In this document: positions 20,101 to 32,652 of the stretch, piece after piece | How the letters are laid out: the number at the start of each line of letters is the position of its first letter | Position numbering within the stretch: position 1 is the stretch's first letter | Assembly (NCBI GenBank): GCA_001603115.1 | Contig: LVBG01000006.1 | Location: 1 to 64,000 of the forward strand | From: Spirochaetales bacterium Spiro_05 | Lineage (GTDB): Bacteria; Spirochaetota; Spirochaetia; Sphaerochaetales; Sphaerochaetaceae | Direction: 5' to 3' | Length of the DNA stretch: 64,000 bases | Translations under genes and position numbers: made by a program | Notes under the pieces: model-generated | Seen by the model: only the letters and a program-made list of their open reading frames with translations | What the model was told of the DNA's origin: nothing | Databases searched by the model: none

Positions 20101-21576
20101 ATGGGAAAAACAGCACTTGTCATCGGGGGAGGCTTTGGCGGCCTCAGTGCAGCGGCTCTCCTTGCCCGCGATGGCTGGGGTGTCACGTTGGTCGAAAAGA
20201 ATGATCAGCTTGGCGGACGGGCACGCTATTGGCACAAGGATGGGTTTACCTTCGACATGGGACCCTCTTGGTATCTCATGCCTGAGGTGTTTGAGCGCTA
20301 CTTCAGCCTGTTTGGCAAGAAACGTTCTTCCTACTTTGACCTCAGCCCACTCGACCCCTACTACAAAGTCTTCTACGGAGAAGGGGAGACGGCAGAGCTT
20401 ACCCCACGCTTTGAGGAGAACAAGGAGTTGTTCGAATCCTTCGAGAAGGGCGGTGGAGCGGCACTGCAAGAGTACATGGAGCAGTCCACCTACAAGTATG
20501 AGGTGGCGATGGAGGATTTCCTCTATCGTGACTACAAGCATATTGGTCAGTTCTTCAACAGAAGGCTGATGACCGAAGGGTTGCGCCTCGGGGTGCTGAA
20601 CAAGCTTGATCATTTTGTCAGCGGGTATGTCAGCGACCGACGGGCCAAGCAGATCCTCGAGTACGCCATGGTGTTTCTTGGTACCGATCCCGCCCAAGCG
20701 CCTGCAATCTACTCCATCATGAGCCATGTGGATCTCAAGCTGGGGGTGTTCTTCCCTCAGAAAGGGATGGCAGGGGCTGCCGAAGGGTTTGCACAGCTGT
20801 GCAGAGAGCTTGGGGTAGAGCTGGTTACCAATGCCGAGGTAAAACGCATCCTTACCAAGGACGGCAAGGCTGTAGGGGTGGAAACGGCCAAGGGCACGTA
20901 TGAAGCGGATGTCATCATCAGCTCCGCTGACTATGAGCACACCGAGTCGACTTTGCTGGAGAAGGTCGAGCGTACCTATACTGATTCCTACTGGAAGAAG
21001 CGCGTAGTAGCCCCCTCGATGTTCATCGCGTACTTGGGAATCGGTCGGAAATTGAAGAATCTGGAGCACCACAACCTCTACTTTGCCAAGGAGTGGGGCG
21101 GACACTTCGATACCATCTTCAAGAACCCCGCTTGGCCGGACTCTCCTTGCTTCTATCTCAGTTGCATCACCAAGACCGACCCGACTTCCGCTCCCCAAGG
21201 GTGTGAGAATGTTTTTCTTTTGGTCCCGGTGGCCCCTGGTCTTGCAGACACCGATGAGCAGAGGGAGGAGTACTTCCTCCATCTTGTTGAGCACGTGAAG
21301 GAAGTTACCGGGGAGGACCTTGGCAAGGACATTTTGGTCAAGCGTCTCTATACCCATCGCGATTTCATCCAGGACTATCATGCCTACCAGGGCACTGCTC
21401 TTGGACTCAGCCATACCCTGATGCAAACAGCGGTTTTCCGTCCCCGCCATCAGAGCAAGCAGGTGAAGAACCTCTATTACACCGGACAGTACACCCATCC
21501 GGGAGTTGGAGTGCCGATGGTACTCATCGCAAGTGAACTGATAGCCAAGGATATCCAAGAGACATATGGTCGCTGA
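20101..21576 (+). CDS. crtI: Phytoene desaturase (CrtI/CrtN type)
   Basis: A 491-aa FAD enzyme that introduces double bonds into phytoene or dehydrosqualene. The dinucleotide fold GGGFGGLSAAALLARDG is at residues 9-25 and the second flavin motif QLGGRARYW follows. The C-terminal carotene-desaturase signature is NLYYTGQYTHPGVGVPMVL. C30 (CrtN) and C40 (CrtI) enzymes cannot be separated by eye. It heads an operon in which every gene overlaps or abuts the next. It probably acts at the inner membrane and needs oxygen-independent FAD cycling in an anaerobe. Confidence 0.9.
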   Translation: MGKTALVIGGGFGGLSAAALLARDGWGVTLVEKNDQLGGRARYWHKDGFTFDMGPSWYLMPEVFERYFSLFGKKRSSYFDLSPLDPYYKVFYGEGETAELTPRFEENKELFESFEKGGGAALQEYMEQSTYKYEVAMEDFLYRDYKHIGQFFNRRLMTEGLRLGVLNKLDHFVSGYVSDRRAKQILEYAMVFLGTDPAQAPAIYSIMSHVDLKLGVFFPQKGMAGAAEGFAQLCRELGVELVTNAEVKRILTKDGKAVGVETAKGTYEADVIISSADYEHTESTLLEKVERTYTDSYWKKRVVAPSMFIAYLGIGRKLKNLEHHNLYFAKEWGGHFDTIFKNPAWPDSPCFYLSCITKTDPTSAPQGCENVFLLVPVAPGLADTDEQREEYFLHLVEHVKEVTGEDLGKDILVKRLYTHRDFIQDYHAYQGTALGLSHTLMQTAVFRPRHQSKQVKNLYYTGQYTHPGVGVPMVLIASELIAKDIQETYGR

Positions 21577-22420
21577 GAAACACGAACAGATTTTCCGCAG
21601 CGGGAGCAAGACGTACTACTTCAGCTCTCGTTTCTTTCCGCCTGCAGTACGCAAAGATGTCTATGCCCTCTACGGCTTTGTCAGGACGGCAGACAACCTG
21701 GTGGATACCCAACCGGTAGACCCTGCCTTGTTCCATGCCTTTCGCAAGGCCTATACCACTTCCCTCACCACGGGGGAGGCCAGTGGAGATGTCGTCATAG
21801 ATGCTTTCTTGGAGTTGCAGAAACGCAAGCAATTCGATCCTGCCTGGACCGAGGCCTTCCTCGATTCGATGGAGCACGACCTGATCAAGTCAACCTGCGA
21901 CAGCCTTGATGAGGTCCTGACCTATATCTATGGTTCGGCTGAGGTCATCGGCCTTTATATGGCCAGGATCATGGATCTTGAAGAAGCCGCCTTTCCCTAT
22001 GCAGCGATGCTGGGCAGGGCGATGCAGTACATCAATTTCATCCGGGACATCCAGGAGGACAATGAGCTGGGAAGGCGCTATCTTCCCCTGGACACTAGCG
22101 GGATCTCCTCCCTTGAGTATGCAGATGTCGCAGTTCATCAGCAACTCTTTGCCACGTTTCTCCGCACTGAGATCAAACGCTACCAAACTTGGCAGAAAGA
22201 GGCACAGAAGGGGTACCGCTACATACCCCGTAGGTATCGCATTCCCATCATGACAGCAGCGGATATGTACTGTTGGACAGCACAACAGATCGCCCTGGAT
22301 CCCATGATTGTCTTTCGAAAGCGGGTAAAGCCGCATACGTCCAGGATCCTAAGCAGGGGCTTTGCCCACAGCCTTGGAGTGGCTTTGCCATGCAGACTTT
22401 TTCGAAAACAGAACGCCTGA
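21566..22420 (+). CDS. crtB: Phytoene/squalene synthase family enzyme (CrtB)
   Basis: A 284-aa trans-isoprenyl synthase condensing two prenyl diphosphates. The two aspartate-rich metal motifs are visible as TADNLVD (residues about 45-51) and RDIQEDNELGRRYLP (about 160-174). YALYGFVRTAD is the family substrate motif. The ATG overlaps the end of crtI by 11 bp. Geranylgeranyl (C40) or farnesyl (C30) use is undecided, but the presence of a cruF-like partner favours C40. Confidence 0.9.
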   Translation: MVAEKHEQIFRSGSKTYYFSSRFFPPAVRKDVYALYGFVRTADNLVDTQPVDPALFHAFRKAYTTSLTTGEASGDVVIDAFLELQKRKQFDPAWTEAFLDSMEHDLIKSTCDSLDEVLTYIYGSAEVIGLYMARIMDLEEAAFPYAAMLGRAMQYINFIRDIQEDNELGRRYLPLDTSGISSLEYADVAVHQQLFATFLRTEIKRYQTWQKEAQKGYRYIPRRYRIPIMTAADMYCWTAQQIALDPMIVFRKRVKPHTSRILSRGFAHSLGVALPCRLFRKQNA

Positions 22421-23034
22421 CCCTGTTTCTCCTCGTTCCCTTCTATCTGATTGGCGTGGTCTTGCACCTTGTCAATGCGACCTTCCCGCTCATGCTTGTG
22501 CTCACCCCGTTCTCCATCCTGGGCACCTCCATCCTCGGGTTCTGGTTTGAAGCCAAAGCCAAGAATGTGCCGTTGCTGGTTTGGGCCTTGGGTACGTTCC
22601 TTGTTACCCTCACATTGGAAATCGTGGGGGTAGCAACCTCACTCATTTTCGGAGCCTACACCTACGGCCCTACCTTGGGTCTCAGTGTATTGGGAGTTCC
22701 GCTTCTGATAGGCATCAACTGGACGATCATCATTCTCGGCTTGGTGGAAATCGTCGGTGACCATGTACAGAGCAAACCTCTTGTCGCCCTGGTTACCGCC
22801 ACTTTGACCGTAGTGTTCGACTATGTCATGGAACCGGTGGCCATCGCCTTCGACTACTGGACATGGACGGGAGGGGACATCCCCTTGCAGAACTACATCG
22901 CATGGTTTTGCATCGCCTTCCTTTTTGCTTATCTCTACCAGCACTACAGGCTCAAGACAACCAACCGGGTACCCACCCTGATTGTCATCGTGCAGTTTGT
23001 TTTCTTTCTCCTGCTGCGGTTGTTCGCCCTATGA
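22390..23034 (+). CDS. cruF: CruF-like carotenoid 1',2'-hydratase / DUF422 membrane protein
   Basis: A 214-aa polytopic membrane protein with 6-7 hydrophobic helices of the CruF/DUF422 family. Conserved polar residues sit in TLEIVGVATSLIFGAYTYG (residues about 77-95), GINWTIIILG and DYVMEPVAI followed by DYWTW. The family hydrates the end group of acyclic carotenes such as lycopene, allowing glycosylation; related proteins form C50 carotenoids. The ATG at 22390 overlaps crtB by 31 bp. No CruG glycosyltransferase is adjacent. Confidence 0.78.
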   Translation: MQTFSKTERLTLFLLVPFYLIGVVLHLVNATFPLMLVLTPFSILGTSILGFWFEAKAKNVPLLVWALGTFLVTLTLEIVGVATSLIFGAYTYGPTLGLSVLGVPLLIGINWTIIILGLVEIVGDHVQSKPLVALVTATLTVVFDYVMEPVAIAFDYWTWTGGDIPLQNYIAWFCIAFLFAYLYQHYRLKTTNRVPTLIVIVQFVFFLLLRLFAL

Positions 23035-23912
23035 AACGCCTGCTGCTGCTTTTGATACTCAGCATTTCTCTGCATCCCTTGGCGGCTGAGGTGCTGCCTG
23101 AGCAACAGAGTGCCCCGATGGTTGTGGAGAGACCTCCTGTTCGGTACTGGAGTCCGACCGAGCGTGGCAGCACCTTGGTACAGACCCTCCCGGGTCTTGA
23201 CCAACCCAGTCCGGTGCCCACCAGAACCGACCCCAAGCTTTTGGTAGTCCTCTACCACAATATCGTCTTCGGACGTACTGGAAACATCTATAACCGCGAC
23301 CTGTATAATTTTGAGCACGATCTGGCGTACCTGAAACGCAACTATACGATCACCAACTTCACGGATCTGGTTACCCATAAGCCCTCCACCGATTTGGCCA
23401 TCATCACCTTCGATGATGGCGATCTCTCCCTGTACGGCATCGTGTACCCGCTCTTTCGCCAATATGAGTTGGAGGCAACCATCTTTCTGGTTCCGAACTT
23501 CATCGGTGAGGTCGGTTATATGAGCTGGGAACAGGTGAGGGAGATGAGCGACTATCGGACTGAGGGGGGAAAGAAGCTCTTTCACTTCGAATCGCACAGC
23601 CTGACCCACCGCATGATGGGGTCACTGAGCGAAGAGGAGATTGTGCAGGAACTGAAGGAGTCGAAATCCAGGATTGAGGAATGGACACATGCAGAGGTAA
23701 CCGTACTTGCTCTTCCTTTCGGCAATGGGGAAGGGGACAAGAGGATCATCACCGCTGCAAAGAGACTGGGCTATACTGCGATAAGGACCTCAAGACCCCA
23801 AGCCGTTCTGTTTGAAAAGCTCAACCTTTGGTCCCTTCCAGCTTTGAATGTGGAGAACTACTCCACCGATGTCTTTGTCCAGAAGGCTTTGGACTTGACC
23901 AGGAGGTTCTGA
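23031..23912 (+). CDS. Exported polysaccharide deacetylase (NodB fold)
   Basis: A 293-aa protein with a signal peptide (MKRLLLLLILSISLHPLAA) and a carbohydrate esterase 4 domain. The catalytic and metal residues are D-D in TFDDGD (near 125) and the histidines of SHSLTH (near 185). LALPFGNGEG supplies the later loop. It probably removes N- or O-acetyl groups from an extracellular glycan. The ATG overlaps the cruF stop (ATGA), which is an unusual link between pigment and glycan genes. The opposing strand carries a GT2 synthase. Confidence 0.85.
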   Translation: MKRLLLLLILSISLHPLAAEVLPEQQSAPMVVERPPVRYWSPTERGSTLVQTLPGLDQPSPVPTRTDPKLLVVLYHNIVFGRTGNIYNRDLYNFEHDLAYLKRNYTITNFTDLVTHKPSTDLAIITFDDGDLSLYGIVYPLFRQYELEATIFLVPNFIGEVGYMSWEQVREMSDYRTEGGKKLFHFESHSLTHRMMGSLSEEEIVQELKESKSRIEEWTHAEVTVLALPFGNGEGDKRIITAAKRLGYTAIRTSRPQAVLFEKLNLWSLPALNVENYSTDVFVQKALDLTRRF

Positions 23913-23913
23913 T

Positions 23914-24660
23914 ATGACCAAACACCTAGCACCGCTTTGCCTGATTCTCTTGCTTCCCTCTCTGCTCTTTGCTGAGACCCCTACCTTGGTGCGTACCCAG
24001 CCAAGGGAACTGAAATTCGGGGGCCTTACCTGGAGGTTGAAGAGCAGCATCACCCCCACAGCTCCCGGTCCCAACTACTACCGGGCTACCGAAGATTCAG
24101 TTTGGGTGGACGATTGGGGCTTGCACCTGACGATAAAGAAGCAGAATGATGTGTGGTGGGCAAGCGAGATTTTTACACGCGAACGAGTGGGATACGGCAC
24201 CTACACCTTCAGCGTGGAGACTGATGCACGCAACTATGATCCTCATGTGGTGGCAGGTTTCTTCACCTGGGATACCGCACCTGAGGAGCATAACCGAGAG
24301 ATCGACATCGAGTTTGCGGCTTGGGGAGCAAAGAGTGGCACCACCTTCCAGTACGTAGTACAACCGTATACCGATCCCTCACGCATCCTCGTCTTCGATC
24401 CCAAGCTCAGCGGCAACCTCACCACCCACCGAATCGTGTGGACACCCGAAGGGGTGCGCTTTGCCTCTTACCATGGTCAGGTTGATCCCGACCAGCCTGG
24501 CAGTGAAACGTACCTGATCAAGCAGTGGGGCTATCCAGATGCCCCGAGCGAAGGGCGAGCGCGCTTTCGCATCAACCTCTGGCTCTTTCAAGGCAAGGAG
24601 CCAAAGGAAGCGGTGCACATGGTGGTCACTGCGTTTTCGTTTGAGCGCTGGCGGCCTTGA
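23914..24660 (+). CDS. Exported GH16-type glycan hydrolase
   Basis: A 248-aa protein with a signal peptide (cleavage after LLFA near residue 20) and a jelly-roll glycosidase domain. The GH16 catalytic motif E-x-D-x-E is present as EIDIEF (residues about 129-134), preceded by GFFTWDTAP. GH16 enzymes cut or transfer beta-glucans, agarose or related glycans; the substrate is open. It starts one base after the deacetylase stop. Its last 35 bp overlap the 3' end of the convergent glycan synthase gene. Confidence 0.8.
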   Translation: MTKHLAPLCLILLLPSLLFAETPTLVRTQPRELKFGGLTWRLKSSITPTAPGPNYYRATEDSVWVDDWGLHLTIKKQNDVWWASEIFTRERVGYGTYTFSVETDARNYDPHVVAGFFTWDTAPEEHNREIDIEFAAWGAKSGTTFQYVVQPYTDPSRILVFDPKLSGNLTTHRIVWTPEGVRFASYHGQVDPDQPGSETYLIKQWGYPDAPSEGRARFRINLWLFQGKEPKEAVHMVVTAFSFERWRP

Positions 24661-27475
24661 AACCGGTACGCACCTGGGCTCCCCACCCCCGATTCTTACG
24701 CATTGCACTGAAATATGCACTGACACGCCACAAGCTGATCACCTGGCGAACCCCGAAGTTCTCAATGATTGCCATCCAGATGAGCCTGAGCATATCCTTG
24801 TTGGTATAGAGCGCACGGTCAAACTCACTGATGAAGAGAGAAGAGAGAGAAACCATGATACCCAACAGGATGGTTGAAGTGAACAAGGCAAGGGCTATGG
24901 GTAGGTTTATCAAGCCCATCAAAGCCCCGATGAAGACAAACAGCAGTCCCTGGGCCTCCACAAAGGGGCCGAGCAACTCAAAGAGGAAATAGTAGGGCAT
25001 CCCGATCAGACCTAGTCTTCCGAACTTGGGGTTGCCGATCATGGAGCTATGGAAGAGCAGGATGTCGATCAGGCCGCGATGCCAGCGGTCCCGCTGGCGG
25101 CGCAGTACCTTCCACTTCTGTGGAACCTCGGTCCAGCAGTTTGCATTGCTTGCATACTGCACCCGATAGGGCAAGCGGCGCTCACGCATGTAGCGGCTGA
25201 GGCGCACCACCAGTTCCATATCTTCTCCCACCGTGTCCTTGTGGTATTTGCCGCTCTTGGTGAGGTAACCGCCGGTAGCGATGGTACGGTCACGATGGAA
25301 GACACCGAATGCCCCGCTGATGATCAGCAGCAGGTTCATCTTTGCCCAACCGACGCGTCCGGTCATGAAGGAGCGAATATACTCCAGGCTCTGTAATCTG
25401 GCCAGGAACTTGGGAGGAAGGGCTATTGCATCCAAGGATCCAAGTTCCACATCACAGCCGTTGATCGGGCAGATGTTTCCCCCACTTGCAATGGACTGCA
25501 CCTGGTGATCCAGCATGACGGAGACAGCACGCAAGAGGGCATCGGACTCAAGCAGGCTGTCTGCATCGATGCCGCAGAAAAACTCGCGGGTAGCTACGTT
25601 CAGGCCTAGGTTCAGTGAGTCTGCCTTGCCCCCGTTCACCTTATCCACCACTACCAGGTTAGGGATGTTCTTGTTTCGGTAGATGCCCCTCAGGGGTCGG
25701 GTTTTCAGACGCTTGGGCACCAATTGGTCACGCTTTTCCAGGTTGTAGTAGCTGATGAGCTTGGCAAGCGTATCATCCTTCGAGCCGTCATTGACTACGA
25801 TCAGCTCAAAATCGGGGTAGTGCTGGTTGAGCAGGCTGTTGGTGCTCTCGATGATGTTTGCCGCCTCGTTGAATGCCGGGGCTATGATCGAGACCGAGGG
25901 CAGGAGCCCATCGGTGAAGAGCATCTGCTTGTCCTTTGCCCGCCACAGGCGGTTCTGGACTGCAGCCCCGCGCAAAGAGACCCCGAGAACGGCTAGGTAG
26001 ATGCCGTTGATGGTCACCGAGTAGAAAACAAGCAGGTAGTTGAACCGAACCACATAGAGCTTTACCAGCTCGAGAAGTGAGAGGTCCACCAGGTTCGGCA
26101 ACTCGGTGGCCAGGATGATCAGGGGGAAGATGAGGAGCGTGAGGATGAGCAGGAGTATCAGCAGCAAGCGTTGTGGTTTCTCCTGATGTGGCTTGGCAAC
26201 CTGCTTTACCGCAGGTGGTTTGGGAATTTCGAGGGCTTGGAATACCGAGGGGTGAAGGTAGGCGAGCAAAAGCAACCTAAGATTCTTGCTCCGCTTGGCC
26301 AGGGTCTTGATAAGCTTGCCCAGTTCCTGTTGCTTCCCGCTATCCTGGTTTGTGTTGAGAAACTGTACCAGACCACTGATGTGCGCTTGGTTTACCAGAC
26401 TCGCTACCAGTGAGGTGAGCCGCTCATCCAAGGGGCCCTGATGTGATTCCAGAATGTAGGTGAGGCGGTTGTCGAGTACCTTCGACAGCACTTCCGCCTC
26501 ACTTTTTGAGCGTTTTTTCTCAAACAGGGTAAGCAGATCACCCAAGAGGCTTGGATCACGATAGGCCATCTCGCTGATGCTCTGCACAAGTTGCTGGCGG
26601 ATGTCGAGGCGCTTTGCATACTTGAGTATGGCGGGAAGCAGGTTCTTGTCCTGCCGCTGTGCGTATGCCCTGATGACAAAGGGAAGGGTGCTTCGGTACG
26701 GGCTTTCCAGAAATGGGGGAGTATGCAAGGTTGTTGGGTAGTGAAGGCAGAGTACTTCCAAAGCCGCTTTCCTGATGAGGATGTTCTTTGCCTGTGCTTG
26801 GCGGATGAGATACTCTTTCAGCACCTCGGTGGGATAGGACTTTGCATACTGTGCCACAAGCAGGGAGAAGTAGGTCCTGTCATTCTTGAGCCGACTCTTG
26901 AGGTAGGGAAGCAACATGGTTCCATAGCTCACCAACAACGCGCGATACCGTCCTGCCATCCAAGGCGTGGCCTTCCTGAGGTGCATGAGCATGGGAAGAA
27001 TGGCCTTGCGTTCCTTTGCTTTGGCCAAGGCCTCAAAGAGATAGAGCACCACAACCTGGCTCTTCTCTTGCTTGAGGGCCTCAAGCAAGGCAAGGTTCAC
27101 CTTCTCATGCTTTGCCAAGCGCTTGAGAAGCGCGATAGCCTCGATCCTTCTGAGTGCAAAAGGAGAGCGCAGATGCTTGAACTGCGAGGCAACGAGCGAT
27201 GTGGATACAAGATATGCTTGGATTTGCATCTCCTGTGCTTCTTGCAAGACCACAGAGGAAGCATATCGGGTGTACAGCTTGAGCAGTTGCTTAGGATGCA
27301 GCTTGTCAAGGGTGAGCGTGCCTTCCCCAAGCTGGCCAAGCAAGATCCCCTCGGTTTGGATGCGCTTTCTTGTGGCAACCGTACGGACCAGGCGCAGGAC
27401 CAAGAGACTGAGGATGAGCAACAAGTCCGCCCCTATGACACTGAAGGTGATGATCAGGGCAAGGTTGGACGACAT
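24626..27475 (-). CDS. HEAT-repeat / GT2 processive glycan synthase
   Basis: A 949-aa membrane protein. It begins with one transmembrane helix, then about 400 residues of HEAT-like helical repeats in the cytoplasm, two helices (about 440-520), and a GT2 domain. The synthase motifs are VNDGSKDD, GIDADSLL, TVGEDMEL and QRDRW, the last being the QxxRW of processive synthases such as cellulose or PNAG synthases. C-terminal helices follow. ATG at 27475 starts one base after the stop of the sensor gene. HEAT repeats fused to a synthase probably dock the regulator. The product is unknown. Confidence 0.85.
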   Translation of the reverse strand: MSSNLALIITFSVIGADLLLILSLLVLRLVRTVATRKRIQTEGILLGQLGEGTLTLDKLHPKQLLKLYTRYASSVVLQEAQEMQIQAYLVSTSLVASQFKHLRSPFALRRIEAIALLKRLAKHEKVNLALLEALKQEKSQVVVLYLFEALAKAKERKAILPMLMHLRKATPWMAGRYRALLVSYGTMLLPYLKSRLKNDRTYFSLLVAQYAKSYPTEVLKEYLIRQAQAKNILIRKAALEVLCLHYPTTLHTPPFLESPYRSTLPFVIRAYAQRQDKNLLPAILKYAKRLDIRQQLVQSISEMAYRDPSLLGDLLTLFEKKRSKSEAEVLSKVLDNRLTYILESHQGPLDERLTSLVASLVNQAHISGLVQFLNTNQDSGKQQELGKLIKTLAKRSKNLRLLLLAYLHPSVFQALEIPKPPAVKQVAKPHQEKPQRLLLILLLILTLLIFPLIILATELPNLVDLSLLELVKLYVVRFNYLLVFYSVTINGIYLAVLGVSLRGAAVQNRLWRAKDKQMLFTDGLLPSVSIIAPAFNEAANIIESTNSLLNQHYPDFELIVVNDGSKDDTLAKLISYYNLEKRDQLVPKRLKTRPLRGIYRNKNIPNLVVVDKVNGGKADSLNLGLNVATREFFCGIDADSLLESDALLRAVSVMLDHQVQSIASGGNICPINGCDVELGSLDAIALPPKFLARLQSLEYIRSFMTGRVGWAKMNLLLIISGAFGVFHRDRTIATGGYLTKSGKYHKDTVGEDMELVVRLSRYMRERRLPYRVQYASNANCWTEVPQKWKVLRRQRDRWHRGLIDILLFHSSMIGNPKFGRLGLIGMPYYFLFELLGPFVEAQGLLFVFIGALMGLINLPIALALFTSTILLGIMVSLSSLFISEFDRALYTNKDMLRLIWMAIIENFGVRQVISLWRVSAYFSAMRKNRGWGAQVRTGFKAASAQTKTQ

Positions 27476-27476
27476 C

Positions 27477-29477
27477 TCAAACCCCCTTTTCACTGATGAG
27501 CCTGATGAGGCCAATCAGTTCATACAAGGGTAACGGGCGGGAGAAGAAGTGACGAATACTCAATTCATAGGCACGGCTCACCGTGCGTTCCTGTTTGTTC
27601 ACCGACATAAGCAGGAACGGAATTCTTCCCAAGGAGGGCCTGGCAAGCAGATCCTTGCGTAAGGTAAGGCCACTGAGCTTGGGGACCAAGAGCTCACTGA
27701 CAATCAAGTCGGGAGGAGATTCTGAGACCAAGCGCTTTGCCTCCAGCCCATTGGAACAGACCAGGACGCGATATCCCTCTTTCTCGAGCGCTTGTTTGAT
27801 CAGGTCGCGGTCGAAACCTGGGTTGTCCACCAGCACGATGGTGAAGGCCGAACGACTGCCAACCTTGCTCTCAGAGGATGAGATGAGGACGCCTCCTCCC
27901 TGTTTTCGTGCAAGCCTAAGCCTGAAAAGGGTGGTCTGGTTGACCAGTGAGATGATTCCCGCACTGTCGTTTCGCAGTTCTGGAGGAATTTCCTCGGAGT
28001 GGAAGAGTCCCATGGACACCGTAATCGGGACAATGAAACGCTCCTCCGAAGCAATGAGATTTCTCAGGGAGTTGGCCCTCTCGATGGCCTGAGATCTGCT
28101 GAGCGAGGAGCACAGTAGGCTGAAGAGCCCCCCGCTGAGCCTGCACACCTGCACATGATCCTCCACATTGCGTACCAGAAGGTCTGCCAGGATTCGCATG
28201 GTGCGGTCTCCTTCGCTGCTCTGGAAGTCGAGATTGATGCGATCGAGGTTGTCGATGCCCAGTACGAGGATGGCAAGCCCGTGCTCTTGTTTCTCCAGTT
28301 GGTAGAGGGCTTTCTGCAGGTAGGCGAGGTAGAACTCATTGTTGTACAGGTTTGTCACGGGGTCGCGGTACAGACTCTCCTCAAGCTCCTTGAGCCGCTG
28401 CTGTGTTTCTCTCAATTCCTGGGCATTTTCCAACGCCTGCTGTTCGGTTTTCACTGCCAAGGTGGAGAACGAGAGAGGCAGTGGCAGGTCGTACTGCCTG
28501 GAGAGCAGTTCGACAAAGGAGGAGATGGAAGTGAGCCAGCCTACTCCCTTCTTCTGCTCAAGGTAGGTGAAGAACTGCTCCCACAGTGCCGACTCGCCGA
28601 TGCTTGTCTTGCTGATCACCTTCTTCTTGGTGTTGATGGTGAAGGGGCTCTGCTCGAAGGCGGTGCGGACAGCTTCCTGGCCGTGAATGGTTATCAGTCG
28701 GGTCACCACCTGGTCGAGGAGGGCACGAAGGCCTCCATCGAGGGGAAGATTCTGCTTGCGGGGTTGCAAGAAGAGTCCGCAAGGCATCTCTTTCAACGTG
28801 TCGATGTGCTCTTGGATATTCTTGCGAATGATGGAACCGTGTTGCGGGCAGATGAGCGAAATTGAATAGCTTTCAAGACCATCCATGGCGGCTTTGAGTA
28901 TCTCATGGCTGGGCATGTACACTTCATGGAAGGCTTTCATGCCGTCCAGGTAGGATTCATCAGCGTAGAGTTGCCAATCTGCGGTGATGGAGCCGAAGAG
29001 GTCTCCGCTCACCAGAGCCTTCTGTTCAGGCAGATAGCTCATGATGGCTCCGGGAAAATGGAGGTACGGGGTGAAAATGAAGCCGATGGAGCTCCCGTTT
29101 TCCATGGTGTAGGAGTACTGGTGATGGTTGACCAGGTAGAAGGTGCTCTTGAAGCCGTAGTGCTTGAGAATCATGGCAGCTCGCTCGTGGCAACAGAGCA
29201 CCCCTCCAAAGCCTGCTTCCTCAAAGAAGGAGACTGCGTAGCAGAGATCGGGGTCCTGGTGGCTGAGGACAATGGCTTCTAGCCGGTCCATGGGGATGAG
29301 GCTCATGGTCTTTGCAAGGACCTCTCTCCCATCAAGGGCGCTGCCGGGGTCGAAAAGGATTCCCGACCCATCCTTGATGAGAAGGTACGGGTTGCATTGC
29401 AGGTTCTCATAGGTGCCTTCAGATCCCACCCACCACAGGTCTTGGGCAATGAGAACGGGTTTGGTAAGGTCAATCAT
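27477..29477 (-). CDS. ODP-like di-iron MBL-fold / degenerate GGDEF / degenerate REC fusion
   Basis: A 666-aa soluble protein of three parts. Residues 1-225 are a metallo-beta-lactamase fold with HQDPD (73-77), H140, D159 and H213, the ODP/FprA ligand pattern for a di-iron centre that binds oxygen. After a helical linker comes a GGDEF domain with DPVTNLYNNEFYL but SGGLF in place of GGDEF, so cyclase activity is unlikely. The last about 110 residues are a receiver fold whose phospho-Asp position reads IVSELLVP, with Glu replacing Asp. The ATG overlaps the upstream stop by 8 bp. It probably regulates the downstream synthase. Confidence 0.8.
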   Translation of the reverse strand: MIDLTKPVLIAQDLWWVGSEGTYENLQCNPYLLIKDGSGILFDPGSALDGREVLAKTMSLIPMDRLEAIVLSHQDPDLCYAVSFFEEAGFGGVLCCHERAAMILKHYGFKSTFYLVNHHQYSYTMENGSSIGFIFTPYLHFPGAIMSYLPEQKALVSGDLFGSITADWQLYADESYLDGMKAFHEVYMPSHEILKAAMDGLESYSISLICPQHGSIIRKNIQEHIDTLKEMPCGLFLQPRKQNLPLDGGLRALLDQVVTRLITIHGQEAVRTAFEQSPFTINTKKKVISKTSIGESALWEQFFTYLEQKKGVGWLTSISSFVELLSRQYDLPLPLSFSTLAVKTEQQALENAQELRETQQRLKELEESLYRDPVTNLYNNEFYLAYLQKALYQLEKQEHGLAILVLGIDNLDRINLDFQSSEGDRTMRILADLLVRNVEDHVQVCRLSGGLFSLLCSSLSRSQAIERANSLRNLIASEERFIVPITVSMGLFHSEEIPPELRNDSAGIISLVNQTTLFRLRLARKQGGGVLISSSESKVGSRSAFTIVLVDNPGFDRDLIKQALEKEGYRVLVCSNGLEAKRLVSESPPDLIVSELLVPKLSGLTLRKDLLARPSLGRIPFLLMSVNKQERTVSRAYELSIRHFFSRPLPLYELIGLIRLISEKGV

Positions 29478-32400
29478 GTGCGTGCTCCTCGGAAAAATAC
29501 GCTGCAAGCAGGGGATAGCTTGCTTTCAGACGTTCCTGGTAGACAGGCTGGTTCCAGGTCGGCAGTGTGTAGCTGATGTTGCTTGTTGCATCAAGAACGA
29601 TGCTTCCCGCCTTGTTTGCCGCCACAACGCTTATCATCAGCGCATCGGTGGCACTGGTGCTGAGTTGATCGCGCAAGGGGTCGCTGTAGAAGGTGCGTTC
29701 ATCATCCAGCACCTGTGCAGACGAAGGGTCGCTCACATTGATGCGGGTCCAGGGAATACGTACCTCGATGTGGTTGCCATCCATCGTCCAGTGGTTGGTA
29801 GAACCTACAAGAGTCCCATATCGCAGATGGCTCGCATCCTCATACTTGGCCGGGATGGGCGTGCCATCTCCAAGGGAGCGCTGCTTGTTGATGAGCTTTC
29901 TCATCGGCAGGAATGCCGCATCCTGTTTGAGGGCAGTGGCTGTGGAGAAGCCCAGGCGGGTGTAGTCTGCCTCTGCTATGGCCAAAAGGCGTGAGCTGCC
30001 AAAGTCTTCAAGCACCACAAGGTACTCCATGCCTGATTCGGAAAGATGGTCCAACTGTGGCAAGTACTTCTGCTCACCACGATTCCTATAGAGCGTATCG
30101 ATGCCGACCAGAAGTTGCTCCGCTCCAAAGTTCAGCGGCCTTGAAAGTAAGATATCCAAGGTGAGAAAGCTGGCATCACTGCGGACTTCCACCCGTTGTA
30201 TGAACGAGTTTGAGGTATAGGTGGCACCACTGCGCGCAGGTTTGACCGCCTCATAGGCGAGTATGCCATAGTTTTGTTCAGGATCGATGCTGTTGTGCCA
30301 GAGAATCTGTCTGTCGTAGGGCACCATGAAGGGCTCTGTGGTCCATGTCTTCTTAGCCCACTCATCCATCCATTCGAAGATGATGCCTCCGCTGTAGCCT
30401 TCTCTCTTCATCGCCTCGAACATGCGGATGATGCCTTGCGCCTGGGCCTTCTCGTCAAGACCCCCATGATGGTAGCCGTCGGGACTGGTATGGGCGTTGC
30501 CCATACCGGTGGCGATGCCGAACTCTGCCACCACGGCAGGGTAGGCCTTGTGCCCATCCATAAACTCCTTGAGGTAAGCACCGTAGCGCAGTCTTCCCTC
30601 CTCATCTGCGTAGAGGTCATAGGAGGGCTCGTTGTTCATGAAGTCCGGATAGTTGGGGTAGATGTGGTAGGAACCAAAGAGACCTGCCTTGCTCTTCTCG
30701 CCCAGCACCAGATGGTTGATGTTCACCGTGGTACGGTCGTTGTACTCACGGATTTTCTTTCCCTCCTCATCACGCTCCGAGTCGTGCTCAAGGTAATCGA
30801 GGGTGGGCCAATTGACAATGGAAACGGGGGTCTGCCGGTTGTAGGTTTTCTCCTCATAGGAGAGCAGGTAGTCACAGCTCTGTGCAAGCCACGATTCAGT
30901 GGGCGTGGCATGTTTGGTAGTACTCAGATACTGGCCGATGAAGCGATACCCTTCGTGCTGGGTATCGGTTTCCTCCACCTCGTGCGGTTCAAGCTCGCGC
31001 CCAACCAGATAGCCGATGAGGTAAGGACTTACATCGGCAGTGTAGGAGCCCCACGCACGTCCTCTTCGCTCACCAATGGTTGCGTTGCCATGTACAGCAT
31101 CCACCACATTGCGGATTTCCTCTTCAAAGGCTTGCTGGTAGGCAGGCCTGAGATAGTCGTGCCCAGGAGGTTCTTCCTCCGGCCAGACTTCTTGCAACAG
31201 GTAGAGCTGCTTCTCGGGATGGAGGCGGTTGTAGAGAGAGAAGGCTTGGTAGAATTCGCTGTCCAAGAGGGTGTAGATGCGCAGGGTGTTTATTCCCAGC
31301 TCTCCCATCTGTTTCAGCCACCGGTAGTAGAGGCTCTTGTCCTGGGGGAACTCGGTAAACCACTTGCCCGGCATGGCCGTACCAAGATTCATGCCGTAGA
31401 TGAAGAGAGGTTGCCACTTGCCATCCTTGTAGACTTGGATCTCTTGGCCCTGGGTTCGAGCTACGAGCTCCACCCCCTCGTGAAGGTAGGGTTTGTTCAT
31501 CACTTGGGGAACGACAAAGTTCTTTCGTTGCTGTGCTTCATCGAGGATGGCTTTCAACAGGGGGAGGTAGACTTTCCAGAGGAAGGCCCGTTCGCCTCTA
31601 GCCACTCGCTGCATCAGCGTATGCATACCCATGGCACGGCTGAAGCGAAGGTGTTCTCTGCTGAACGCCCAATTGCCGCTGAAGTAGTAGGAGAGGTGGT
31701 GGGCTGTCTGCTTGAGCTGGATGGCTGGAAAGGATGAGGGTACGCCATAGGAGGCAAGCAGGGCATCTCCTGCGGCGGTGGTATCCAGCGCATAGGCAGC
31801 AAGTGCTTCAGTGCCTGCAAGGCTTTCGGTGATGTCAAACAGGTGAGTGTAGGGCAGTGAGCCGGAGAGTCCAAAACGTGTTGTTCCTGCTTCGGTAAAC
31901 TGGAATTGCAGGGCTTTCGGCCCCAATTCGACTCCTTCTCTGAGAACCACCACCTCATCGTGGGTGTTTGAGAGAATGATGCCTTTGCCTTGGTAGTTCC
32001 AGCTCTCTCCAAATTGCTCCAAGATCCAAGCGGGAACTTCCCCCTTGGGGGAGAGGTCGTGGACATACATACCGGTCCAGCCGGTCCATCGGGTTCCGAG
32101 CAGCTGATACATCTGAGCTTGTACGTAGGACGGGGTGGGGGTCGCAAAGGTATTGTATTCGGCAATGACCGTGCTGCTCTTCTCCCGGTTGAGGAACTGC
32201 CTGATCATCTGTACGTCACTCTCTGTAGTGCCTCCCCAGATGAGATTGCTCTCACCGGAAGGAACGGTGGTGCGGGAAAAACCCTCTGCGTTGCGGTAGA
32301 CGCCGTAGGTGTCTGCCACGTAAAGCACGTCGGTTCGTGCATCCATGAAGGTCAGGTCCTTGATGGGATCCGTATCGAGAGGACGATAGCCGAGATAGGA

Positions 32401-32652
32401 GCCGGCTCTGCCGAACAGAGAGCCATCTGGGGTCGGGTATTTGTAGTGCTGCAAAAACCACAGCAAGCTGCGATGTTGTTCTGCAGCCTTGGTGGGAACG
32501 GTCTTGTCATAGATGGTAACCGCAAGTTCTCTCGCTGGGCTCATCTGGTGCAGTGCAAAAGGAAGACTCACCACCACCAGGATGATGAGGAGCAACACCA
32601 CCAAGGTGCGCGCATCGGCGCGACCAGGCTTCTTGTTCTTGCGTCGTTTCAT
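29470..32652 (-). CDS. Membrane-anchored glycosidase-like protein (TIM barrel)
   Basis: A 1060-aa protein with a basic cytoplasmic start (MKRRKNKK), one transmembrane helix (about residues 16-36) and a long outer part. The middle resembles a GH2/GH5-type barrel: MGELGINTLRIYTLLD, YLIGYLVGRELEP, VVAEFGIATGMGNAH (the usual nucleophile region) and IIFEWMDEWAKKTW. The ends are beta-rich and unrecognised. It is the first gene of the glycan-synthase operon and could trim, transfer or guide the nascent chain outside the inner membrane. The ATG at 32652 lies 7 nt after a TATACT box. Confidence 0.7.
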   Translation of the reverse strand: MKRRKNKKPGRADARTLVVLLLIILVVVSLPFALHQMSPARELAVTIYDKTVPTKAAEQHRSLLWFLQHYKYPTPDGSLFGRAGSYLGYRPLDTDPIKDLTFMDARTDVLYVADTYGVYRNAEGFSRTTVPSGESNLIWGGTTESDVQMIRQFLNREKSSTVIAEYNTFATPTPSYVQAQMYQLLGTRWTGWTGMYVHDLSPKGEVPAWILEQFGESWNYQGKGIILSNTHDEVVVLREGVELGPKALQFQFTEAGTTRFGLSGSLPYTHLFDITESLAGTEALAAYALDTTAAGDALLASYGVPSSFPAIQLKQTAHHLSYYFSGNWAFSREHLRFSRAMGMHTLMQRVARGERAFLWKVYLPLLKAILDEAQQRKNFVVPQVMNKPYLHEGVELVARTQGQEIQVYKDGKWQPLFIYGMNLGTAMPGKWFTEFPQDKSLYYRWLKQMGELGINTLRIYTLLDSEFYQAFSLYNRLHPEKQLYLLQEVWPEEEPPGHDYLRPAYQQAFEEEIRNVVDAVHGNATIGERRGRAWGSYTADVSPYLIGYLVGRELEPHEVEETDTQHEGYRFIGQYLSTTKHATPTESWLAQSCDYLLSYEEKTYNRQTPVSIVNWPTLDYLEHDSERDEEGKKIREYNDRTTVNINHLVLGEKSKAGLFGSYHIYPNYPDFMNNEPSYDLYADEEGRLRYGAYLKEFMDGHKAYPAVVAEFGIATGMGNAHTSPDGYHHGGLDEKAQAQGIIRMFEAMKREGYSGGIIFEWMDEWAKKTWTTEPFMVPYDRQILWHNSIDPEQNYGILAYEAVKPARSGATYTSNSFIQRVEVRSDASFLTLDILLSRPLNFGAEQLLVGIDTLYRNRGEQKYLPQLDHLSESGMEYLVVLEDFGSSRLLAIAEADYTRLGFSTATALKQDAAFLPMRKLINKQRSLGDGTPIPAKYEDASHLRYGTLVGSTNHWTMDGNHIEVRIPWTRINVSDPSSAQVLDDERTFYSDPLRDQLSTSATDALMISVVAANKAGSIVLDATSNISYTLPTWNQPVYQERLKASYPLLAAYFSEEHAHD

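Follow-up and report, generated by a model that had tools for sequence, protein, structure and literature searches.

Control of the known synthase-dependent exopolysaccharide systems is exercised mainly by c-di-GMP. In two of them, ydaJKLMN of B. subtilis and Pel, a regulator with a degenerate GGDEF domain is encoded beside the synthase genes; these regulators, YdaK and PelD, reside in the membrane and bind c-di-GMP via an intact RxxD I-site (PMC7064775, PMC8461298). The ODP protein of Treponema denticola (TDE2498), in turn, consists of a single domain and is coupled to a chemoreceptor (PMC7666581).

The window analysed here (the whole stretch of 64,000 nucleotides from Spirochaetales bacterium Spiro_05) contains three consecutive genes on the minus strand, which we call gene1, gene2 and gene3 (Table 1). 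Gene2 shares with YdaK and PelD a degenerate GGDEF domain and a position beside a synthase gene, but its product is soluble, lacks the I-site and carries ODP and receiver (REC) domains. Its ODP domain has the same di-iron fold and ligand set as the T. denticola protein; here, however, it is fused to a pseudo-GGDEF and a pseudo-receiver and appears coupled to a polysaccharide synthase. The C-terminal half of gene2 aligns with PleD, yet its order is GGDEF and then REC, the reverse of PleD-type REC-GGDEF cyclases, and both active sites are dead.

The PNAG systems (pgaABCD, icaADBC) are similar in another respect: PgaC is the nearest named synthase to gene3, and a PgaB/IcaB-like deacetylase is encoded next door. 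In contrast to PNAG, the unit has a HEAT arm, a GH16 enzyme and a gene1-type enzyme, and PgaA, PgaD and a two-domain PgaB are all missing from the genes around it. Gene3 scores 105 bits with the NCBIfam PgaC_IcaA model, for which the cut-off is 422 bits, and is 26% identical to E. coli PgaC. We therefore reject gene3 as a PNAG synthase (PgaC/IcaA) on this score and, given also the missing partners, do not file the unit under PNAG. Cellulose synthase (Bcs) is likewise rejected: gene3 reaches 28.6 bits with the CelA equivalog, whose cut-off is 699 bits, and a domain search found no PilZ domain in it. In composition the unit differs from the pga, bcs, pel and yda operons; the earlier note had said the same of the known alginate, cellulose, Pel and PNAG operons. 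Its suggestion of a candidate new system calls for a wider frame, as the system is not confined to this lineage: HEAT proteins paired with GT2 synthases occur in several phyla and in archaea. What is new is, in our best reading, a variant composition among synthase-dependent exopolysaccharide systems.

Table 1. Positions in the window of the unit, its domains and the two neighbouring enzyme genes
Feature	Positions	Strand	Remarks
gene1, membrane-anchored glycosidase-like protein	29470..32652	-	1060 aa from Met at 32652; homologues adjoin HEAT-GT2 in other phyla
gene1 parts			residues ~30-380, N-domain; ~385-803, TIM-like; ~805-1055, C-domain
gene2, ODP di-iron + degenerate GGDEF + degenerate receiver	27477..29477	-	666 aa, no TM
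ODP domain of gene2	28836..29402	-	ligands H73, D75, D77, H140, D159, H213; aligned to T. denticola ODP 6qrq
pseudo-GGDEF of gene2	28038..28370	-	SGGLF replaces GGDEF; no RxxD I-site, one metal Asp missing
pseudo-receiver of gene2	27504..27839	-	phospho-Asp position is E595
gene3, HEAT-GT2 polysaccharide synthase	24626..27475	-	949 aa
HEAT region of gene3	26186..27358	-	residues ~40-430; lies between TM1 and TM2, predicted to be cytosolic
GT2 catalytic domain of gene3	25076..25891	-	residues 529-800; DGSxD 563-567, DxD 637-639, GED 750-752, QRxRW 794-798
GH16-type beta-glucanase gene	23914..24660	+	convergent with gene3; ExDxE intact
polysaccharide deacetylase (PgaB/IcaB-like), accessory	23031..23912	+	adjoins unit in most, not all, carriers

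A conserved unit of three genes

The open reading frames lie where the earlier note, which proposed an operon, had placed them: the stop of gene1 (29470) and the ATG of gene2 (29477) give an overlap of 8 bp, while the stop of gene2 ends at 27477 and gene3 begins at 27475, a gap of 1 nt. Promoter and terminator scans did no better than shuffles. The deacetylase and GH16 genes, in this order, converge on gene3 as had been described, and the latter overlaps it tail to tail by 35 nt (24626-24660). This overlap is exactly 35 nt in 9 of 13 relatives checked and 26-32 nt in the other four, which is unusually fixed for convergent genes. A further neighbour of the unit, conserved so in most of the genus, is a carotenoid gene set at 20101-23034, comprising a CrtID-type desaturase (above the curated cut-off), a member of the phytoene synthase family and a CruF-like hydratase.

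The co-occurrence check that the earlier note had suggested was run on 139 genomes of the family, 75 of them good genomes, and did not find the scattered occurrence that would speak against a system. Gene2 is present in 21 of the 139, and the GH16 gene in exactly the same 21. At the cut-off applied, gene3 is detected in 20 of these carriers; the remaining one (G024) has it as fragments at contig ends. Gene1 occurs in all 21 and additionally in G008 and G054, both of them fragmented assemblies. Gene2, gene3 and GH16 stand together in 15 of the 75 good genomes. Wherever a contig permits checking the unit is contiguous, and it persists with its GH16 gene while the flanking genes change from genus to genus. 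The carriers span five genera, with non-carriers interspersed; they are related, so their presences are not independent events. Given the joint presence and absence of the three genes and GH16 across 139 genomes, the arrangement is not due to chance: gene1-gene2-gene3 is a real and strictly conserved gene unit. The deacetylase gene adjoins it in most carriers, the exceptions being G016, G029, G039 and G056.

In a set of 100 relatives, gene2 and gene3 are neighbours in all 25 that possess them; these 25 span five families of the class, four of which have no detected gene1. Relatives of the GH16 gene are found beside or near the synthase in G064, G370, G343 and G335 as well.

Putative sensor, synthase and enzymes

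Gene2 matches ODP (E 2e-50; 172 bits with PF19583, cut-off 27), a GGDEF-like domain and REC, in that order. All six di-iron ligands align to the T. denticola structure 6qrq, and the H-D-D-H-D-H set is identical to it in 15 of 17 gene2 relatives. The signalling domains fare differently. GG[DE]EF is degenerate in all 17 (SGGLF/GGSAF/AGGTF/SGPAF-like), with one metal Asp missing; no aligned row has an RxxD I-site ahead of the GGDEF position; and the phospho-acceptor of the receiver is Glu in 17 of 17, although the fused receivers of L113 and L114 retain Asp. A distant ODP protein (L078, 6608-8377, genome G080) provides a control: it combines ODP with a GGDEF domain whose RYGGEEF is intact, so the decay in the gene2 family is real and the activity lost. 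L078 itself is a candidate for an oxygen-sensing diguanylate cyclase.

The three signatures together indicate that gene2 is neither a cyclase nor an ordinary response regulator. An active diguanylate cyclase is rejected because GG[DE]EF and the metal Asp are absent from all 17, a c-di-GMP receptor of the PelD/YdaK/BcsE type because the RxxD I-site is absent, and a phospho-accepting response regulator because Glu occupies the phospho-Asp position throughout. Thus the description of gene2 in the earlier note as an ODP/GGDEF/REC protein survives for the ODP ligands, which are kept, but not for a working GGDEF or REC, as their defining residues and the I-site are gone. The ODP domain is probably a sensor of O2 or redox state. 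Still, oxygen sensing is not essential to the module, because several lineages have lost the ODP site and kept the rest (L076, L077, L109, L114, L116). In the two members of the 17 without the ligands, G063 and G064, a PAS-SpoIIE gene lies upstream in place of gene1. PAS-SpoIIE-HATPase genes stand directly before gene2-gene3 in three cases of such loss (L076 25-1638, L077 7202-9076, L116 5905-8094), and we suggest them as an alternative input.

The product of gene3 has what is expected of a processive GT2, namely D, DxD, (T/G)ED and QxxRW with flanking TM helices, and its motifs DGSxD, DxD, GED and QRxRW are intact and invariant in 16 of 16 relatives. Hydropathy places TM segments at residues 8-26, about 437-465 and 481-499, with more after the catalytic domain. 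Roughly 390 residues between TM1 and TM2 are HEAT: 15 of the 16 family members have a HEAT_2 match (the best at 6e-13; weak, at 0.008, for the window copy alone), and the family profile hits the alphaRep proteins, which are designed HEAT proteins, at 1e-18. The processive type and the N-terminal HEAT repeats proposed before are thereby borne out. From the placement of the TM segments, a topology read from hydropathy, region 40-430 is predicted to lie on the cytosolic side. Predicted structure models were poor (pLDDT 32 and 41, at alignment depths of 1 and 3). In a GT2 tree a single clade (99/100) unites the HEAT-GT2 fusions of spirochaetes, while HEAT-linked GT2s as a whole split from PgaC/BcsA/YaiP weakly (80/84) and on long branches, and hence we place no strong claim on the tree.

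Gene1 has one N-terminal TM segment (residues 16-34) followed by about 1000 residues outside. Its full profile finds no match in Pfam, NCBIfam or PDB. Homologues that flank HEAT-GT2 genes in Paenibacillus, Deinococcus, Planococcus and spirochaete G329 were used to widen the profile of the TIM region, which then matches the GH2-type structure 9fz9 (E 5e-4); to this extent gene1 looks glycosidase-like, as the earlier note had it. E710 aligns to a Glu of 9fz9 for which the sibling entry 9g4n has Ala, and on this ground we take it as the candidate catalytic nucleophile; it is kept in 8 of 9. The candidate acid/base, E553, lies outside the 9fz9 match and is conserved in 7 of 9; neither residue is present in the Planococcus copy. 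By these residues and this match, gene1 is a probable glycosidase or transglycosylase. In Paenibacillus cellulosilyticus (L132, 7723-13036) two gene1 paralogues precede HEAT-GT2, and in the one with an N-domain Asp replaces the candidate acid/base Glu. The N-domain of gene1 shows no similarity to the deacetylase fusions encoded next to HEAT-GT2 elsewhere.

Concerning the two convergent genes, the ExDxE motif of GH16 is invariant in 11 of 11. By itself the window protein gives no match in Pfam, and the family profile finds 1,3-1,4-beta-glucanases as its nearest solved relatives (1e-7), a hint of a beta-glucan. The deacetylase scores 71 bits with PF01522 (CE4; cut-off 23); together with a glmS gene in one archaeon it hints at an amino sugar. 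As regards the sugar of the polymer, both are hints.

HEAT-GT2 pairs in other phyla

Sampling of other phyla drew on one genome scan and on plasmid records. GT2s 31-43% identical to that of gene3 and encoded beside a HEAT protein occur in several phyla as well as in archaea, among them Bacteroidota, Alphaproteobacteria, haloarchaea, Legionella and Deinococcus, often with a receiver gene. The sets read hybrid kinase, Hpt, REC, HEAT, GT2 in Bacteroidota; REC, TPR, HEAT, GT2 in other spirochaetes and in Erythrobacter; kinase, REC, REC, YaiO, HEAT, GT2, Hpt in Mesorhizobium; UDP-sugar enzymes, YaiO, HEAT, GT2 in Legionella; and REC, HEAT, GT2 in haloarchaea, one of which continues with a sugar nucleotidyltransferase and glmS. 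The haloarchaeal sets (replicons L136, L139 and L142) are apparently undescribed. The pair also occurs in Bacteroides, and no receiver was seen beside it in Legionella, Bacteroides, Paenibacillus or Deinococcus. YaiO/TPR-type export genes and a deacetylase accompany HEAT-GT2 in other lineages. In another spirochaete family, a deacetylase with a weak GH42M-like match (L121, 4391-6223) lies just upstream of REC-TPR-HEAT-GT2.

Two things set these apart from the unit: HEAT and GT2 are separate genes, and the stand-alone receivers keep the phospho-Asp, the sole exception seen being Emticicia (Asn). Homology of the separate HEAT proteins to the HEAT region of gene3 is detectable in 8 of 18. The upstream input part varies (ODP, PAS-SpoIIE, kinase), while receiver-HEAT-GT2 is constant. 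The annotation of these genes goes no further than 'response regulator / HEAT repeat domain-containing protein / glycosyltransferase', and searches of open-access papers turned up no named HEAT-GT2 or receiver-HEAT-GT2 system, though one may be described in subscription papers. The gene2-gene3 core is an unnamed synthase module common to many bacteria and some archaea.

Proposed mechanism and competing explanations

Very probably, the unit builds and trims a surface sugar polymer. Gene3 would polymerise an activated sugar and push the chain through the inner membrane, with its HEAT solenoid on the cytosolic side acting as a regulatory arm. Gene2 would be a soluble regulator that itself catalyses nothing, in which ODP brings in an O2 or redox signal independently of phosphorylation and the dead GGDEF and dead receiver form the contact surface for the HEAT arm. 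We propose receiver-HEAT control from gene order, as the receiver goes with HEAT and HEAT with the synthase. Gene order thereby lends some backing to the suggestion of the earlier note that the sensor may dock on HEAT. In the fused spirochaete forms the receiver is kept in fold and in place beside HEAT-GT2, its phospho-site has mostly been lost to Glu, and the input in front of it differs (ODP; PAS-SpoIIE upstream; none); most simply read, the receiver fold serves as a docking piece for HEAT. As gene2 would replace the phosphorylatable receiver of other phyla, control may have passed from a phosphorelay to the direct sensing of a ligand, an ancestral receiver input having been rebuilt here into a phosphorylation-independent, probably O2/redox-gated regulator. 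Gene1, membrane-anchored and periplasmic, and the secreted GH16 would cut or remodel the polymer, and the deacetylase, where present, would modify it.

What the data show is the gene content, its co-inheritance, the state of the motifs, the homologies and the gene neighbourhoods. The whole reading built on them (a synthase-dependent polysaccharide system with a HEAT arm regulated by gene2 and a product trimmed by gene1 and GH16) is in our opinion somewhat more probable than not. From these data we infer the contact between gene2 and HEAT, oxygen as the signal, the identity of the sugar and the direction of control. The unit contains no outer-membrane exporter gene, which counts against this reading and suits a rival one: that the glycan is not an exported matrix polymer but stays in the periplasm or bound to the membrane, as a cyclic or short glucan might, and is shaped by gene1 as a transglycosylase. 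NdvB is an example of such a GT2-GH pairing and would be a model for gene1 in this role. Gene1 is membrane-anchored; among the enzyme partners it is, GH16 apart, the most constant; it accompanies HEAT-GT2 in monoderm Bacillota too, and the beta-glucanase likeness of the GH16 profile fits as well; yet deacetylase and TPR/YaiO-type export genes go with HEAT-GT2 elsewhere, and we regard a retained glycan as unlikely, though deserving of attention. We give similar, limited credence to the idea that synthase control is as proposed but that gene2 senses NO, iron or redox instead of O2, or that its ODP is an O2/NO-consuming enzyme. ODP is kin to flavodiiron NO/O2 reductases and its site has been lost in several lineages, but gene2 has no flavodoxin domain and the nearest solved relative of its ODP is the T. 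denticola O2 sensor (PMC7666581).

More doubtful is ordinary c-di-GMP control, in which gene2 would make or bind the nucleotide and act on the synthase like YdaK, PelD or BcsE. A GGDEF-fold domain in the regulator of a GT2 synthase does have precedent in yda and pel (PMC7064775, PMC8461298). Against it stand the decayed GG[DE]EF and lost metal Asp, the absence from gene2 of the I-site by which those three proteins bind c-di-GMP, and the absence of PilZ from gene3. Least probable of all, in our judgement, is that the genes are merely co-transcribed and the target of gene2 lies elsewhere. Physical contact between gene2 and HEAT is our deduction, which leaves room for such a view; but mere co-transcription would hardly explain why gene2 and gene3 are neighbours in every relative that possesses them, over five families and also where gene1 is not detected, or why receiver genes adjoin HEAT-GT2 in other phyla.

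Returning to the regulated synthase, we tentatively offer a broader proposal, to which we give somewhat less than even credence: receiver, HEAT and GT2 may constitute an unrecognised class of polysaccharide synthase in bacteria and archaea, switched post-translationally by docking of the receiver on HEAT, and in this spirochaete family the receiver would be the phosphorylation-independent arm of a di-iron O2 sensor, so that the synthase is gated directly by oxygen. Here is a widespread synthase family without PilZ or I-site, whose neighbours point to receiver-HEAT control in archaea and bacteria alike, and a spirochaete branch of it where the receiver slot is filled by an O2-sensor domain with two dead signalling domains. 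It would offer a compact system for learning how a signalling protein acts directly on a polysaccharide synthase, and a possible route by which anaerobes couple their surface glycan to oxygen.
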